Below are positions 2,554 through 8,228 of a stretch of 8,228 nucleotides of DNA, one piece after another. The notes beneath the pieces were generated by a model. That model was not told the origin of the DNA, made no database searches, and saw only the letters and a list, made by a program, of their open reading frames with translations. Source of the DNA: Deltaproteobacteria bacterium RIFOXYA12_FULL_61_11 (GTDB lineage: Bacteria; Bdellovibrionota_F; JAHFAK01; YA12-FULL-61-11); contig MGSU01000190.1 of the NCBI GenBank assembly GCA_001799195.1, positions 1-8,228 of the forward strand, written 5' to 3'. The position numbers were made by a program, and so were the translations under genes. Position 1 is the stretch's first letter, and each line of letters starts with the position of its first letter.

Positions 2554-2595
2554 GCAATCTGCCCAAACTCCCTCAAGGGTCAGCCATGAGTGCAT

Positions 2596-2599
2596 GGAG
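2596..2599 (+). promoter_or_regulatory. Shine-Dalgarno GGAG choosing the start at 2605
   Basis: GGAG is followed by CCTTC and then ATG at 2605. The in-frame GTG at 2590 lacks such a site and sits directly after an in-frame stop, so the ATG is preferred. Confidence 0.65.
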
Positions 2600-2604
2600 C
2601 CTTC

Positions 2605-4101
2605 ATGAACCGCAATGATCTGCGCGAGTTGATCGCCAATGGCGAGAATTCCGGTGTGGAGTTCAAGCTGGACACGGTGCGACCGGAACAGCTCGCCAAA
2701 GAAGTGGTGGCTCTGGCCAACCTCAAGGGCGGTCACATCCTGCTCGGCGTTGCCGACGACGGCACCATCGTCGGTATCACTCGCGAGAACCTGGGCGAGT
2801 GGATGGCCGACACCGTATTCGCGCGCTATGTGCACCCTCTCCTCCTGCCGTATTACGAGGAAATGCGCATGGAAGACGGCAAGATCGTCGTCGTCCTCAC
2901 CATCGAGCAAGGTATTTCCAAACCTTACGTCGTCCGGGCGAATGACCGTGAAACGGCCTATGTCCGCATCGGACCTGTATCGCGGCAAGCAACCCGGGAA
3001 CAGCTCTTGATGTTGGGTTCAGCCAGCGGGTTCCTGCATACCGAGAGCATGCCGGTCCACCGGACGAACCTCGAGTCTCTGGACCGATCTCGTCTGGAGA
3101 ACTATCTGAAAGACATCTTGAACGACCCGGACCTTCCCGTTACCGAGGAGGCGTGGCTCACCCGGTTGATGGCGTTGGGGCTGATGACGGATGGTCCTGC
3201 TGGGGGAGAGCCGGTCTGCAGCATCGCCGGCTTGGTTCTGTTCGGGATTCGCCCTCGGCAAACGCTGCGGCAATCCGGTGTGCGCCTGATATTTTTCAGC
3301 TCCCTGGAAAAAACCTATCAAGCACAAGTAGATAAAATCCTAGACGCTCCGCTGGTCGGACGTTTCCAGGTCGGCAAGACGGGTAAAACGCTCATTGATT
3401 CTGGGTTGATAGAGAAGACGCTGGAGCTGATGGAACCGTTCGTCACGCAGGAGGCAGCCACCCTGGATGCGCATTTCCGACGGGACAAGGCCTGGCTATT
3501 TCCCTTCGAGGCCCTGCGTGAGCTGATCGTCAACGCGCTCGCCCATCGTGACTGGACCCGCTTCGTCGAGGTGGAAATCGTCGGGTATCAGGACCGTCTC
3601 GAGATAACCAGCCCCGGGTCCCTGCCCAATTCCATGACCGTCGAGAAAATGTTGGCCGGTCAGCGTGTGGCCCGCAACCCTATCATCGTCGAGGTGCTTC
3701 GCGATTACGGCTACGTCGATGCACGAGGCATGGGGATCCGCGCCAAGGTCGTGCCCGCGCTCAAAGCCATCGGGTCCACCTGGCAGGTGCAGGCGACCGA
3801 TGATTTCGTGAGGGCGTCCGTCGGCAAGGCTGCCATGGGCCAGCCCATGGAGCCAGCTCGGTCCACTGCAGCACGACCTCTGGCGAGAAAGAGTCGGGAA
3901 AGAGTCGGGAAAGAGTCGGGAAAGCTCCTGGCCCTGTGTCGGGAGAAACCTGCCATAACCATCCCCGAACTAGCAGCGGTCCTCGGTATCAGCGAGCGAT
4001 CGGTGCAACGGAACCTCCAGCATCTCCAACGCGAGGGCCTGCTACGGCGGGTCGGCGGTCGCAAAGAGGGCCAGTGGGAGGTAATGAATGAGAACACTTG
4101 A
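2605..4101 (+). CDS. AlbA_2 / GHKL-ATPase / winged-helix protein (Schlafen-like, RecG-like annotation)
   Basis: From the ATG this is 498 residues in three modules. Residues ~1-125 form an AlbA_2 (Schlafen AlbA) domain: GENSGVEFK near 13-21, ANLKGGHILLGVADDGTIVG near 38-57, and YVRIG near 119-123. Residues ~160-400 contain a divergent HATPase_c_4 domain: the N-box FPFEALRELIVNALAHRDW at 299-317 gives the E and N expected for magnesium-ATP binding, followed by EITSPGSLP and GMGIRAK near 375-381. Residues ~440-493 form a winged helix (ITIPELAAVLGISERSVQRN), joined by a repetitive linker, KSRERVGKESGK. Such proteins are often annotated as transcriptional regulators or RecG-like helicases, but no helicase motifs are present; regulatory and phage-defence roles have been suggested. 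Its own hexamer array lies upstream. The end of this gene recurs in decayed form at 6703-6918. Confidence 0.93.
   Translation: MNRNDLRELIANGENSGVEFKLDTVRPEQLAKEVVALANLKGGHILLGVADDGTIVGITRENLGEWMADTVFARYVHPLLLPYYEEMRMEDGKIVVVLTIEQGISKPYVVRANDRETAYVRIGPVSRQATREQLLMLGSASGFLHTESMPVHRTNLESLDRSRLENYLKDILNDPDLPVTEEAWLTRLMALGLMTDGPAGGEPVCSIAGLVLFGIRPRQTLRQSGVRLIFFSSLEKTYQAQVDKILDAPLVGRFQVGKTGKTLIDSGLIEKTLELMEPFVTQEAATLDAHFRRDKAWLFPFEALRELIVNALAHRDWTRFVEVEIVGYQDRLEITSPGSLPNSMTVEKMLAGQRVARNPIIVEVLRDYGYVDARGMGIRAKVVPALKAIGSTWQVQATDDFVRASVGKAAMGQPMEPARSTAARPLARKSRERVGKESGKLLALCREKPAITIPELAAVLGISERSVQRNLQHLQREGLLRRVGGRKEGQWEVMNENT
3888..3920 (+). repeat. Three tandem 11-bp repeats in the linker of the ATPase gene
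   Basis: AAAGAGTCGGG occurs three times in a row without mismatch (3888-3898, 3899-3909, 3910-3920), followed by a partial AAAG. It encodes the KSRERVGKESGK linker before the winged helix. Because 11 is not a multiple of three, gain or loss of one unit would shift the frame and remove the DNA-binding end. Confidence 0.9.
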
Positions 4102-4268: not shown

Positions 4269-5048
4269 ATGACGAAACAACCATCGAAACCGAATAGGAT
4301 CAAGTTTCCCTTGACGCACGCTCCGATCGTCGAGGCACTCCTGGACCTCGACTGCGACCTTCCTCCAACCCTCGACTTTGAGGCGCTGCGGGAGCGGGCA
4401 CGCCAGCGACTGGCCGAGCGCTACCCCATCTGTCGCACCAAGTATAGCCGTCAGGTCGAATTCCCGGTCGCTCCTGAGACCCCCAACACACTTCGGGTGG
4501 GCGATCGCATCGAGGCCTACGGCTTCTGGCAGCAGGACGAGCAACAGCTCATCCAGCTCCGGCAACAGGGCTTTTCCTTCAACCGCATGAAGCCTTACAC
4601 CACGCTCGACGATTACCTGGCGGAGATCGAACGAACCTGGGGCTTGTTCGTCGAACTGGCCGAGCCGGTGATGCTGCGAACGGTGCGCTTACGCTACCTC
4701 AATCGTATACTCCTACCGTTGAAGTCGGGCCGAGTGAAGCTCGATGATTATTTACACATCGGTCCGCGCCTCCCTGCTGGTAAGCTTGCCTTGAGCGGCT
4801 TCTTGACTCGGTTCTCGCTGCTCGACCCAGACACCTCCTTCTCGGCTCAGCTCGTGCTGGCCAGCGAACAATGGACCGAGGATGAGCTGCCCCTGATTCT
4901 CGACCTCGCCGTTACTGCAGCAGTTTCCCTGCCGGTCGATGCAGCCACCTGGTCGACAATTCGGCCGACGCTCGACTCGCTGCGGGTATTCAAGAACGAC
5001 CTCTTTTATCGGAGCTTGACCGAGAGATGTCTGAATTTATTCAAGTAA
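4269..5048 (+). CDS. TIGR04255-family protein, first gene of a three-gene operon
   Basis: This 259-residue protein matches the TIGR04255 family, sporadically distributed bacterial proteins of about 250 residues with unknown function. Visible family marks are HAPIVEALLDLDCDLPP near residues 17-33, GFSFNRMKPYTTLDDY at 101-116, the long helix ending in RTVRLRYLNRILLPL at 137-151, and LDSLRVFKNDLFYRSLTE near 235-252. There is no signal peptide or membrane segment, so it acts in the cytoplasm. A TTG at 4251 is in frame, but the ATG at 4269 is the better start, since the family sequence begins soon after; AAGG at 4255-4258 is a modest Shine-Dalgarno. The stop overlaps the next gene by 22 bases, a sign of translational coupling. 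Family assignment is confident; the biochemical role is not known. Confidence 0.88.
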   Translation: MTKQPSKPNRIKFPLTHAPIVEALLDLDCDLPPTLDFEALRERARQRLAERYPICRTKYSRQVEFPVAPETPNTLRVGDRIEAYGFWQQDEQQLIQLRQQGFSFNRMKPYTTLDDYLAEIERTWGLFVELAEPVMLRTVRLRYLNRILLPLKSGRVKLDDYLHIGPRLPAGKLALSGFLTRFSLLDPDTSFSAQLVLASEQWTEDELPLILDLAVTAAVSLPVDAATWSTIRPTLDSLRVFKNDLFYRSLTERCLNLFK

Positions 5049-5596
5049 AACCATACTCGAGCGGGGGAGTATTTTATGGGGGTCGGTTTCCCTCAAGCAC
5101 AGCAAAGTGTAACTATTTCACGATAACGCAGAGAGATTTTATCAACAACGCAGCTTCTCCCGTGGCGTCTCCGGTGCTGCGTAAACACGGTGAGGACTTG
5201 GAGCGAAACCTCGACACTTTGCGCACTCCGTATCACAAGAAAGAAGCTCTGTTGGAGGCTCTCGACGAACTGGATCGGGAGTGCTCGACCCCGAACTGGG
5301 ATTGTTACCATGCACTACCGTTACATCAAGATGCCGTTGAGCAAACTCGGATGTTCCTTCGAGTTTTACCGAATGACCTGCCTTTACCAGAAATCGCGCC
5401 GGAACCTGATGGATCCATCTCGCTCGACTGGTCTATGTCGAGGGTGTGCAGTTTGACGATAAGCGTGGGATCCTCCAATCGTTTGCCTTACGCTTGGCTC
5501 GATGGCATCCAAAGGGGGCACGATGTCGAGTGCTTCGATGGACGAACGATCCCAGCTCCGTTGGAGTTCCGTCTGCGTTCCCTAGTGAGGTTGTAG
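5027..5596 (+). CDS. Uncharacterised partner protein, second gene of the trio
   Basis: This 189-residue protein has no name I can give. Its core resembles a family I recognise only as uncharacterised companions of TIGR04255 genes: a charged helix (KKEALLEALDELDRE, 71-85), then NWDCYHALPL at 90-99, a helix to LRVLPNDLPLPEI, and the acidic PEPDGSISLDW at 125-135. After that come beta-like strands ending in VECFDGRTIPAPL at 167-179. The first ~50 residues look less conserved and have poorer codon use. The ATG at 5027 lies inside the end of the upstream gene (22-base overlap), with GGAG at 5011-5014 and a purine-rich GAGAG just before it. It carries neither signal peptide nor membrane helix. The tight layout implies it works with its neighbours, perhaps as a complex; this is inference. 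Confidence 0.8.
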   Translation: MSEFIQVKPYSSGGVFYGGRFPSSTAKCNYFTITQRDFINNAASPVASPVLRKHGEDLERNLDTLRTPYHKKEALLEALDELDRECSTPNWDCYHALPLHQDAVEQTRMFLRVLPNDLPLPEIAPEPDGSISLDWSMSRVCSLTISVGSSNRLPYAWLDGIQRGHDVECFDGRTIPAPLEFRLRSLVRL

Positions 5597-5602
5597 TCCC
5601 CC

Positions 5603-6007
5603 ATGCTCGCTTCCGGTCTACCCGAACATATCGCTGATGATGAGCATTTGGCGCGTTTTCTCTTCCAGAGCAACCAGTTCAAGGCTGCTGAGGTAAAATC
5701 GTCGGCTTTCATGCCTCACCGCCAATCTCAGGAGACTTCGGTATTTCGCCATGGAGTAACGCCATTGGAGACCCTCTGGGCACTAGCCGGGGTGGCTGGA
5801 GCGCAACGCAAGGTCTATGGGGCTGCCATCCTGACAGCTCGCCAAGTCAGAGCGGTCGCCCTCGATCTCATGGCGGACGAACCCCCCGCGCGTCATGCAG
5901 CGATACGGGGTTGGCCCTCTGTTGCAGACCCAGAATTACAGAAGGCACTCCAACTCGAATGTGCCAAACTGCTTGCTCAAGCGGCCGGACGACCTTTCTT
6001 GAAATGA
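5603..6007 (+). CDS. Uncharacterised small protein, third gene of the trio
   Basis: This 134-residue cytoplasmic-looking protein starts 6 bases after the preceding stop; GAGG at 5587-5590 may be its Shine-Dalgarno. I recognise the pattern but no function: LARFLFQSNQF at 17-27, SAFMPHRQSQETSVFR at 34-49, and LDLMADEPPARHAAIRGWP at 88-106, followed by a helix rich in leucine and alanine. Proteins with this pattern recur as the last gene of TIGR04255-containing trios. The three conserved blocks contain histidines and arginines (RH in EPPARHAAI) that could be catalytic or nucleic-acid contacts, but nothing in the sequence proves either. Because the two neighbours upstream are of known recurrent type, the operon is probably complete. 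Confidence 0.82.
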   Translation: MLASGLPEHIADDEHLARFLFQSNQFKAAEVKSSAFMPHRQSQETSVFRHGVTPLETLWALAGVAGAQRKVYGAAILTARQVRAVALDLMADEPPARHAAIRGWPSVADPELQKALQLECAKLLAQAAGRPFLK

Positions 6008-6028: not shown

Positions 6029-6139
6029 ATGAACCTCTACACCGACAACACCTTTGCGAAGCTAGTGCAGCACGACACGGTCGACCTGCGCGCCGGGAGC
6101 CAGCGCCGCTGCACGGGAGATTTGCATGAAACTCACTGA
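6029..6139 (+). CDS. Possible 36-residue leader ORF overlapping the helicase start
   Basis: A short frame begins MNLYTDNTFAKLVQHDTVD and ends with a TGA at 6137-6139, 14 bases inside the helicase fragment. The overlap would suit translational coupling, and the opening residues look protein-like. I recognise no family. It could also be the fused end of an older gene. The Shine-Dalgarno (AGG at 6015-6017) is far from the start, so confidence is low. Confidence 0.25.
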   Translation: MNLYTDNTFAKLVQHDTVDLRAGSQRRCTGDLHETH

Positions 6140-6443
6140 TCTCGCCCGCGGTCAGGCCATACTGGGGCTCGAGCCCGAGCTGGTGTGCACCGTGGTCGCG
6201 GTGGAGTTGCTCGGTGCCGAGGCTGCTCAGGTCGTCTACAAGCTGCCAGCCGGGGGTATCAAAGAGCGGTTGCTCTCCGCGCAGGAGGCGGCCAACCTGA
6301 CCTTGGCGACGGTGACCCGGCCCTGGACCTTCGCCGGAGACCCCGCGCGCTTCCAACTGACCTGCGAGGCCAAGCGGCTCGACCTAGCCTTCCTGTTCGA
6401 CCCGATGATGGCCGTGCACACCTCCAACGTGGAACCGCTACCC
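6126..6443 (+). pseudogene. Truncated SNF2-type helicase, N-terminal ~106 codons (DrmD-like)
   Basis: The protein opens MKLTDLARGQAILGLEPEL and continues to EAKRLDLAFLFDPMMAV and HTSNVEPLP. This is the conserved N-terminus of large SNF2-family helicases found in defence islands, including DISARM DrmD and helicases linked to DUF1156/DUF499 genes. In those proteins VEPLP is followed by HQ and, some tens of residues later, by the Walker A motif. Here the match stops at 6443. The frame then runs for 19 unrelated codons through the antisense of the DUF932 repeat, to a stop at 6498-6500. The start is well marked by GGGAG at 6115-6119, 6 bases before the ATG. The whole ATPase core is missing, so no helicase activity is possible. 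The family match is from memory of conserved motifs; which subtype it belonged to is inference. Confidence 0.78.
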
Positions 6444-6579
6444 ACTCCCCTATTGTTTACGCCGCCAGTTTCAAAGCCTCGGCGAAGGCTTGGTCCTTGA
6501 GCTGGGAGCCGCTGCCGAACCAGGCCGACTGCAAACGCTTGTCATCGCTGCCGCGGACGTGGTCGATGAAGTGAGTGAC
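6441..6579. repeat. 139-bp dispersed repeat, copy 2
   Basis: It is collinear with 2083-2221, with about 13 mismatches and no gaps. The left edge coincides with the point where the helicase similarity ends (6441-6443), so this copy marks a recombination junction. Outside the shared block the flanks differ completely. Confidence 0.9.
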
Positions 6580-6606: not shown

Positions 6607-6702
6607 CTATCTTTCAGAATTCCTTTTTGGCCAGCCAAGGAGAGCTGGAACCCTTTCCTGCAGAGCACCTCGCTGGTCAGCTCGGTTTTCTACGGCACAG
6701 CT

Positions 6703-6918
6703 TTGGCGGGAAAGAGTCGTGAAAGAGTCGGGAAAGAGGCCGGAAAGCTCCTGGCCCTGTGTCGGGATATACCTTCACGACCATCCCCGAACTCGCCGCG
6801 GCCCTTCGGCATCGCCGAACTCGAACAAATTCGCAAGATTCTCAACCGTTGGCGTGCCGAGGGCCATCTCGAGATCCTCGGCCGCGGCCGGGACGCACGG
6901 TGGCGCACACTCCGATAG
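6703..6918 (+). pseudogene. Decayed second copy of the winged-helix end of the AlbA_2/ATPase gene
   Basis: From about 6703 the sequence is clearly homologous to 3873-4090. It encodes AGKSRERVGKEAGKLLALCR, against ARKSRERVGKESGKLLALCR in the intact gene. At about 6772-6790 one base is missing, so the expected TIPELAAAL is read in another frame. Near 6803-6806 one extra base restores the frame, and GIAELEQIRKILNRWRAEGH completes the winged helix, ending in a TAG at 6916-6918. The AlbA_2 and ATPase domains are absent, and no start with a ribosome site serves this piece. A continuous 142-codon frame does cover it, but its first part is only the antisense of the DUF932 tail. Confidence 0.75.
6711..6743 (+). 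repeat. Degenerate 11-bp triplet in the second copy
   Basis: Three 11-bp units (6711-6721, 6722-6732, 6733-6743) correspond to the perfect triplet at 3888-3920. Units one and three have diverged, while the copy number is the same. Confidence 0.75.
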
Positions 6919-7473: not shown

Positions 7474-8228
7474 TCACAGAGATCTGGCGAGGCGGAAGCC
7501 AAGGTTGCGGTCTTGGTCGACGGGGTCGAAGTAGTTGCGGTTGGCCGCCCGGCAGTACCCGGCGTAGGAGTCCCAACTGCCGCCGCGAACGACCCGGCGC
7601 GAGCCCGATATAGGACCCGTAGGATCAGCCACGCTGCTCGATGGATAGTTGCCTAGCCAGTCCCAGACCCACTCCCAAACATTGCCCAGCATGTCATACA
7701 AACCCCAGGCATTGGCCTGTTTGCCTCCCACCACATGCGTCGTGCTCCCAGAATTCTGGTCATACCATGCAATGGCTCCAAGTTTTCCGTAATGGGCACT
7801 CATTGATCCGTCCCGCACAGCATACTCCCACTCCGCCTCGGTCGGCAAACGGTAGCCCGTGCAGGAGTGATCCCAACTCACCGAATTGCCACTGCCCGTA
7901 TAACATGGTCGCAACCCTTCCTTAGCCGACAGCTTGTTGCAGAACTCGACTGCCTCGGTCCAGCTCACCCGCTCCACCGGGCAGTCCGCCCCGCAGTTCT
8001 CGGAAGCGCTCGGGTTCCAGCCCATCACCGCCTGCCACTGCTCCTGCGTCACCTCGGTCTTGCCCAGGAGGAAGGACCTGCTGAGCGTGACCTGGTGTTG
8101 GGTTTCGTCGTCCTCCCGGCCTTCTTCCCCTGATGGAGAACCCATGGTGAAGGTGCCGGGCTCGAGGCGGATCATGGTGATACCCGCGGGAGAGACGGGC
8201 GCACCGCCGTGCGCCCCTTGAGGGTGAC
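7474..8228 (-). CDS. Formylglycine-generating-enzyme-like (SUMF1-domain) protein, 5' end probably beyond the window
   Basis: The frame holds a complete FGE-sulfatase (SUMF1) domain. From the ATG at 8175: PGTFTMGSPSGEE at 6-18, EVTQEQWQAVMG at 41-52, PVERVSWTEAVEFCN at 66-80, GYRLPTEAEWEYAVRDG at 107-123, GLYDMLGNVWEWVWDW at 158-173, RRVVRGGSW at 193-201, and NLGFRLARSL at the end. The fold is C-lectin-like. True FGE oxidises a sulfatase cysteine using two active-site cysteines. Here the region RGGSWDSYAGYC keeps only the second, so sulfatase activation is doubtful and a binding or other non-haem-iron-type role is possible. The frame stays open upstream of 8175 to the window edge, in sequence compatible with a domain lead-in (GITMIRLEPG), so the real start probably lies outside. 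Cysteine pairs (CGADC, 61-65) may be structural. Confidence 0.85.
   Translation of the reverse strand, partial: HPQGAHGGAPVSPAGITMIRLEPGTFTMGSPSGEEGREDDETQHQVTLSRSFLLGKTEVTQEQWQAVMGWNPSASENCGADCPVERVSWTEAVEFCNKLSAKEGLRPCYTGSGNSVSWDHSCTGYRLPTEAEWEYAVRDGSMSAHYGKLGAIAWYDQNSGSTTHVVGGKQANAWGLYDMLGNVWEWVWDWLGNYPSSSVADPTGPISGSRRVVRGGSWDSYAGYCRAANRNYFDPVDQDRNLGFRLARSL

Follow-up and report, generated by a model that had tools for sequence, protein, structure and literature searches.

The window examined here, which is the whole stretch of 8,228 nucleotides (nt) from Deltaproteobacteria bacterium RIFOXYA12_FULL_61_11, carries three adjacent genes on its forward strand at positions 4269-6007, hereafter termed A, B, and C. 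Gene A (4269-5048), the first of the trio, starts with ATG and encodes 259 amino acids (aa), gene B (5027-5596) encodes 189 aa, and gene C (5603-6007) encodes 134 aa. All three open reading frames are intact, A shares 22 nt with B, and B is separated from C by 6 nt, in keeping with the compact, co-oriented three-gene operon proposed in a first-pass annotation of the sequence. The assignment of A to TIGR04255 was borne out over its full length by the NCBIfam model (97.2 bits against a cut-off of 30 bits, E 1.3e-27, residues 15-259 aligned with model positions 2-252). This family is annotated as unknown and sporadic, and is named in no paper in the literature searched. The sequence blocks quoted in the annotation are present in B (NWDCYHALPL and PDGSISLDW, within a conserved C-terminal WDxYxA...PDGxIxLxW domain) and in C (FMPHRQSQETSVFR and DEPPARHAAIRGWP). 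B, a predicted antitoxin, and C, a predicted toxin of the ADP-ribosyltransferase (ART) fold with conserved R18, S46, R49, and H98, have no Pfam or NCBIfam match above chance. Sequence searches of the PDB detected no relatives of A or C and only chance-level matches for B.

The conservation of the trio was examined by scanning 84,980 prokaryote species with a profile of C, a search that could recover only C proteins bearing a RHANIxGWP-type motif, and A, B, and C were assigned in the 43 resulting loci by local hidden Markov models; many of the collected loci are short contigs of metagenome-assembled genomes. Although these loci were fetched through C alone, A, B, and C stand in the same order and on the same strand in 38 of them. 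The other five comprise three loci with B-C and no A (L093, L098, and L102), one cut at a contig end (L103), and one fragment (L129). In a survey of 386 diverse genomes, A was found in 49, B in 6, and C in 6, which agrees with the sporadic distribution supposed earlier, and all five strong C matches (5/5) were located in A-B-C order. The trio is thus not due to chance, given the 38 ordered loci and these five matches. Among all loci collected, 48 have B next to C, and in 43 of these A comes before them, with median gaps of -4 nt between A and B and -23 nt between B and C. The strict gene order noticed in the annotation therefore stands, and the rare adjacency that it had named as telling against its proposal was not seen, adjacency being near-universal. 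Going by record titles, the hosts span many phyla and groups, including proteobacteria, Planctomycetota, Nitrospirota, Nitrospinota, Verrucomicrobiota, Desulfobacterales, and Methylomirabilis. B-C also occurs on two IMG/VR contigs, one of which has A as well; single-sequence queries found no close relatives on viral contigs. No B or C was detected by tblastn in 72,556 plasmids, among which there were only two TIGR04255 genes, and no C was detected in 50,697 phages. Where A is missing, other proteins with no detectable similarity to A can precede B-C, namely a protein of 127 aa at L098:1085-1465 and one of 246 aa on a viral contig at L132:2021-2758.

The TIGR04255 gene also leads operons that contain no trio, and these are informative about the position occupied by C. 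In such loci, a small second gene nearly always begins within about 25 nt after the TIGR04255 gene, and the third gene is often overlapping. When the third genes were typed with Pfam and local profiles, 29 could be classified. A PIN protein occupies the third position in five loci (L038, L039, L060, L043, and L071), a HEPN protein in nine (L061 by Pfam and the others by profile), and a PemK/MazF protein in one (L041), so that toxin-type families account for 15 of the 29. C thus occupies a slot in which known toxin-type families are often found. Remote relatives of C follow B-like genes in five further loci (L047, L048, L050, L052, and L072), of which L072 is the weakest, its C profile score not being above background. 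Six loci (L037, L040, L044, L045, L053, and L073) share an unnamed third-gene family, here the TQDCDL family, with a QGDI...(T/S)QxCDL motif and without a Pfam match in the two members scanned, which is a candidate for a new toxin family. DUF7689 proteins are found in two loci (L058, 11172-11606; L059, 8490-8951), and the second gene of L046 is a SocA_Panacea antitoxin, with a further protein encoded after it in the third position. A maximum-likelihood tree built from 77 A proteins shows strong clustering by cargo type, although the cargo has changed at least ten times. The DUF7689 pair is nested within the trio clade of this tree; since DUF7689 here replaces C, it may be another effector. A stop codon interrupts the C-like gene at L048:4874-5302 and the C gene at L056:11618-12013, with A and B open in both loci, which fits a toxin gene that can be lost.

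The AlphaFold model of C, built from an alignment of 45 relatives, reached a mean predicted local distance difference test (pLDDT) score of 94.9. The VIA-align comparison ranked KptA/Tpt1 highest, with a Z-score of 7.7 over 90-92 residues and a root-mean-square deviation of 2.6-2.8, followed by AvrPphF ORF2 (6.2), another Tpt1 (5.9), Tse2 (5.1), and TreTu (4.3), with NarE lower. The top seven rows, with Z-scores of 4.3-7.7 and 90-106 residues aligned, are all proteins that we take to be of the ART fold. The catalytic residues of this fold sit on strands 1, 2, and 5. In the model of C, the predicted strands at residues 15-20, 45-49, and 98-102 carry R18, S46, and H98 as β-1, β-2, and β-5, respectively, so that the conserved residues expected of an ART on β-1 (R/H) and β-2 (S/Y) are present as R18 and S46. 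Three positions that played no part in the selection by the scan are highly conserved among the 45 relatives, R18 and R49 in 43 each and S46 in all 45. The conservation of H98, A99, I101, W104, and P105 in the main alignment carries no weight here, since this motif was the basis of selection in the genome scan; six C-like proteins picked without regard to it nevertheless all have a histidine at the position of H98. ART cores consist of split β-sheets (PMC9503650).

For A, the AlphaFold model (pLDDT 93) predicts a two-repeat α/β fold of the TBP-like, helix-grip kind. Its nearest folds are guanidino kinases (Z 8.6) and TBP (Z ~7), from which no function could be deduced, and SecB is not among the fold matches listed.

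Further insight into B and C comes from PDC-M32, an uncharacterised phage-defence candidate of PADLOC: the C-terminus of PDC-M32A is a B-like domain, and the protein encoded next, PDC-M32B, is remotely related to C. B itself gives a weak PDC-M32A match in PADLOC (E 1.5e-5) restricted to about 50 residues at positions 281-332 of 375, and profile comparison of B with the C-terminal domain of PDC-M32A and B-like proteins gives an hhalign probability of 97%. For C, direct comparison with PDC-M32B in PADLOC yielded no match at E 1, whereas the C-like set including PDC-M32B was aligned with C at 95% by hhalign. The window thus holds neither a full-length PDC-M32A nor an adjacent PDC-M32B. Unlike the trio, PDC-M32A has an N-terminal domain of its own of 250 aa, unrelated to TIGR04255; the idea that A corresponds to this part was rejected (hhalign 0.1%). 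The same domain occurs as a separate gene, without B, directly before a PIN-like gene (PIN by eye) at L146:651-2020, L147:1411-2828, and L148:1477-2806, so that PDC-M32A appears to be two antitoxin-like domains fused into one protein. Because a B-like domain and a C relative are also joined with an N-terminal domain unrelated to A, B-C looks, from sequence comparison, like an antitoxin and its toxin that can join various third components. At L145:3-4093, where PDC-M32A is such a fusion protein with PDC-M32B after it, the two lie between genes that resemble, by eye, HsdM and HsdS of a type I restriction-modification (R-M) system.

Defence genes recur around the trio. The window belongs to a clade of 20 rows (support of 99 in the Shimodaira-Hasegawa-like approximate likelihood ratio test), and in 10 of its 19 relatives there, a type III Mod gene lies upstream on the same strand, at a distance of at most 50 nt in eight. 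A UvrD-like helicase lies downstream in seven loci of this clade, within 50 nt in five. A Mod-trio operon is completed by Res, together with a YhcG-type nuclease in L120. Elsewhere, the trio is followed by a type I methylase in L100 and L101 and preceded by a DpdE/ZorD-type helicase in L094, and in L097 it has a GajB-type UvrD close by. In L120 (10403-12505) and L110 (12582-14660), a region close to the N-terminus of the UvrD-like helicase downstream of the trio weakly matches a HigB/RelE-like toxin domain, with a score below the cut-off.

The annotation had considered a defence, toxin-antitoxin-like, or element-maintenance role plausible, and the present data favour the first two in combination. 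The trio has a slightly better than even chance of being a tripartite toxin-antitoxin-like module, most likely acting in abortive anti-phage defence, with an ART-like toxin C. C would be a minimal ART-fold protein that binds NAD+ and either ADP-ribosylates a target, perhaps RNA or DNA, or destroys NAD+. B, encoded directly before C as its most constant partner, would be the antitoxin that keeps C inactive. A could be a third, regulatory component: in uninfected cells it would stabilise B, either alone or in complex with C, and, as a sensor, it would release B upon phage infection or upon failure of a linked restriction system.

A sensor or chaperone role of A would parallel, by analogy, that of the SecB-like chaperones in toxin-antitoxin-chaperone (TAC) systems such as CmdTAC, in which an ART toxin is freed once a phage capsid protein titrates the chaperone (PMC11618068). 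A TAC with unrelated cargo likewise gives defence (PMC9519451). That an ART toxin can belong to a three-component anti-phage system has a precedent in CmdTAC (PMC11618068, PMC9519451). The trio resembles these systems in having three genes and in keeping one component constant while antitoxins and toxins are exchanged, the families of third genes behind TIGR04255 numbering at least six, and its predicted ART toxin would be a likeness to CmdTAC in particular. It differs in that the constant gene is TIGR04255 and stands first, with no match to SecB or any other Pfam family at E 1; in the residues of its toxin, which are R-S-H in C and are reported as HY-[EDQ] for CmdT; and in the lack of a detected disordered addiction extension. 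Since A is not SecB-like by sequence, the trio may be said to work like a TAC rather than to be one. For the form embedded in R-M operons, PrrC in the EcoprrI type Ic operon offers an analogue, namely a toxin, predicted in the case of the trio, that is possibly unleashed when restriction is blocked; the trio is linked to type III instead of type I systems, has three genes, and encodes a predicted ART instead of an anticodon nuclease. VapBC, HEPN-type, and MazEF/PemK systems are related to the trio through their toxins, which in other genomes take the third position, after TIGR04255 and a small gene. Those toxins are nucleases, whereas the slot in the trio holds C, and in the TIGR04255 operons an additional gene precedes the pair.

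Several observations weigh against this interpretation. The acidic third residue (E/D/Q) of ARTs is absent from C, where His98 stands instead; some ART clades, for example KptA, likewise lack it. Foldseek found nothing significant for the C model (best E 0.7), the Z-score of 7.7 falls in the range that VIA-align calls possibly coincidental, and membership of C in the KptA or RES family by sequence was rejected by hhalign (0.1% and 1.1%, respectively). Because of the histidine and these negative profile comparisons, the assignment of C to the ART fold, which is drawn from a predicted model, is supported but unproven. The absence of SecB-like sequence from A leaves its sensor or chaperone role to operon analogy, and a composition test for a disordered, chaperone-addiction-like N-terminal extension in the second genes was negative. 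Neither Mod nor Res of a type III R-M system lies within the 8.2-kb window, which holds no intact R-M system. The remaining trio flanks are mostly housekeeping genes, so the defence linkage is real but not universal. As to fixed housekeeping positions, which the annotation had also regarded as unfavourable to its proposal, many loci do lie amid housekeeping genes, but the flanks of the trio vary and include defence genes.

Among the other explanations, one retains the tripartite toxin-antitoxin-like module but regards C as a different small toxin that merely resembles an ART and does not use NAD. The argument from the operon slot is independent of ART chemistry, and the best Z-score, which is below a safe level for a fold match, together with the lack of sequence similarity to KptA or RES, would suit this explanation. 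It is rendered rather unlikely by the agreement of the top seven rows, whose four families have no evident mutual sequence similarity and are all of the ART fold, and by the conserved polar residues at the three canonical strand positions. The trio could instead be an accessory or control unit of R-M systems, such as a regulator of type III Mod/Res, and no stand-alone toxin system. The Mod genes upstream in 10 loci and the UvrD-like helicases downstream in seven, often within 50 nt, argue for this, as do the type I methylase adjoining the trio in two loci and the position of PDC-M32 between HsdM- and HsdS-looking genes. However, the majority of trio loci lack R-M genes of this kind in their vicinity, and A is also paired with PIN, HEPN, and PemK cargo away from Mod, making an accessory role improbable.

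The context in the window itself bears on a further alternative, in which the module chiefly maintains its mobile element or island by addiction and has no anti-phage role. As the annotation had described, the trio lies between an AlbA_2/ATPase gene and a fragment of a defence-type helicase. The upstream gene (2590-4101, forward strand), which is outside the module, encodes SLFN_AlbA_2 and HATPase_c_4 domains (Pfam, 1.9e-18 and 7.1e-16) with a C-terminal winged helix. The downstream gene (6126-6500, forward strand) is the N-terminal piece of an HmaA-type SNF2 helicase, covering model positions 2-108 of 1176 (PADLOC, E 1e-35), and provides context only, a complete HmaA helicase with the partners of the Hma defence system not being found in the window. 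A direct repeat of 139 nt flanks the AlbA_2 gene and the trio, with its left copy at 2083-2221 and its right copy at 6441-6579, the latter overlapping the end of the HmaA fragment; two more diverged copies are present in the genome, on contigs C157 and C52. In a second pair of 74 nt (3878-3951 and 6701-6774), the 3' region of the AlbA_2 gene is duplicated. Both pairs are 91% identical, which suggests a trace of the recombination that built or trimmed the island. Toxin-antitoxin modules commonly act as element-maintenance devices, and the flanking repeats, the gene fragments in the island, and the two copies on IMG/VR contigs would be in line with such a function. It is nonetheless quite improbable as the chief role, given that the searches detected neither B nor C on plasmids, where TIGR04255 genes numbered just two, and no C in phages; moreover, the recurrent link with R-M systems speaks for defence.

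If the preferred reading of the trio as a defence module with an ART-like toxin is extended to the whole family, TIGR04255 might define a new class of defence system of the tripartite toxin-antitoxin kind. Its constant part would be a TBP-like or helix-grip protein, distinct from SecB, that senses for or stabilises many antitoxin-toxin pairs unrelated to one another, and C, together with PDC-M32B, might form an ART clade that has so far gone unrecognised and whose active site is R-S-H. We put forward this wider proposal tentatively and consider it somewhat short of an even chance. If A is a sensor that can be wired to killers of the PIN, HEPN, PemK, or ART-like kind, the problem handled by SecB-like chaperones in TAC systems would have been solved a second time, independently. 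The uncharacterised candidate PDC-M32 would then gain a mechanism, and R-M operons would offer another example of an embedded suicide device. The TIGR04255 family acquires a testable role from the finding that its genes usually stand at the head of three-gene operons whose third gene is exchangeable and often of a toxin type.

Towards the ends of the window, two further features lie on the reverse strand. An open reading frame of 317 aa at 60-1013 has no match in Pfam, NCBIfam, or PADLOC, and an FGE-sulfatase (formylglycine-generating-enzyme-like) gene at 7474-8226 reaches the window edge with its 3' end complete.
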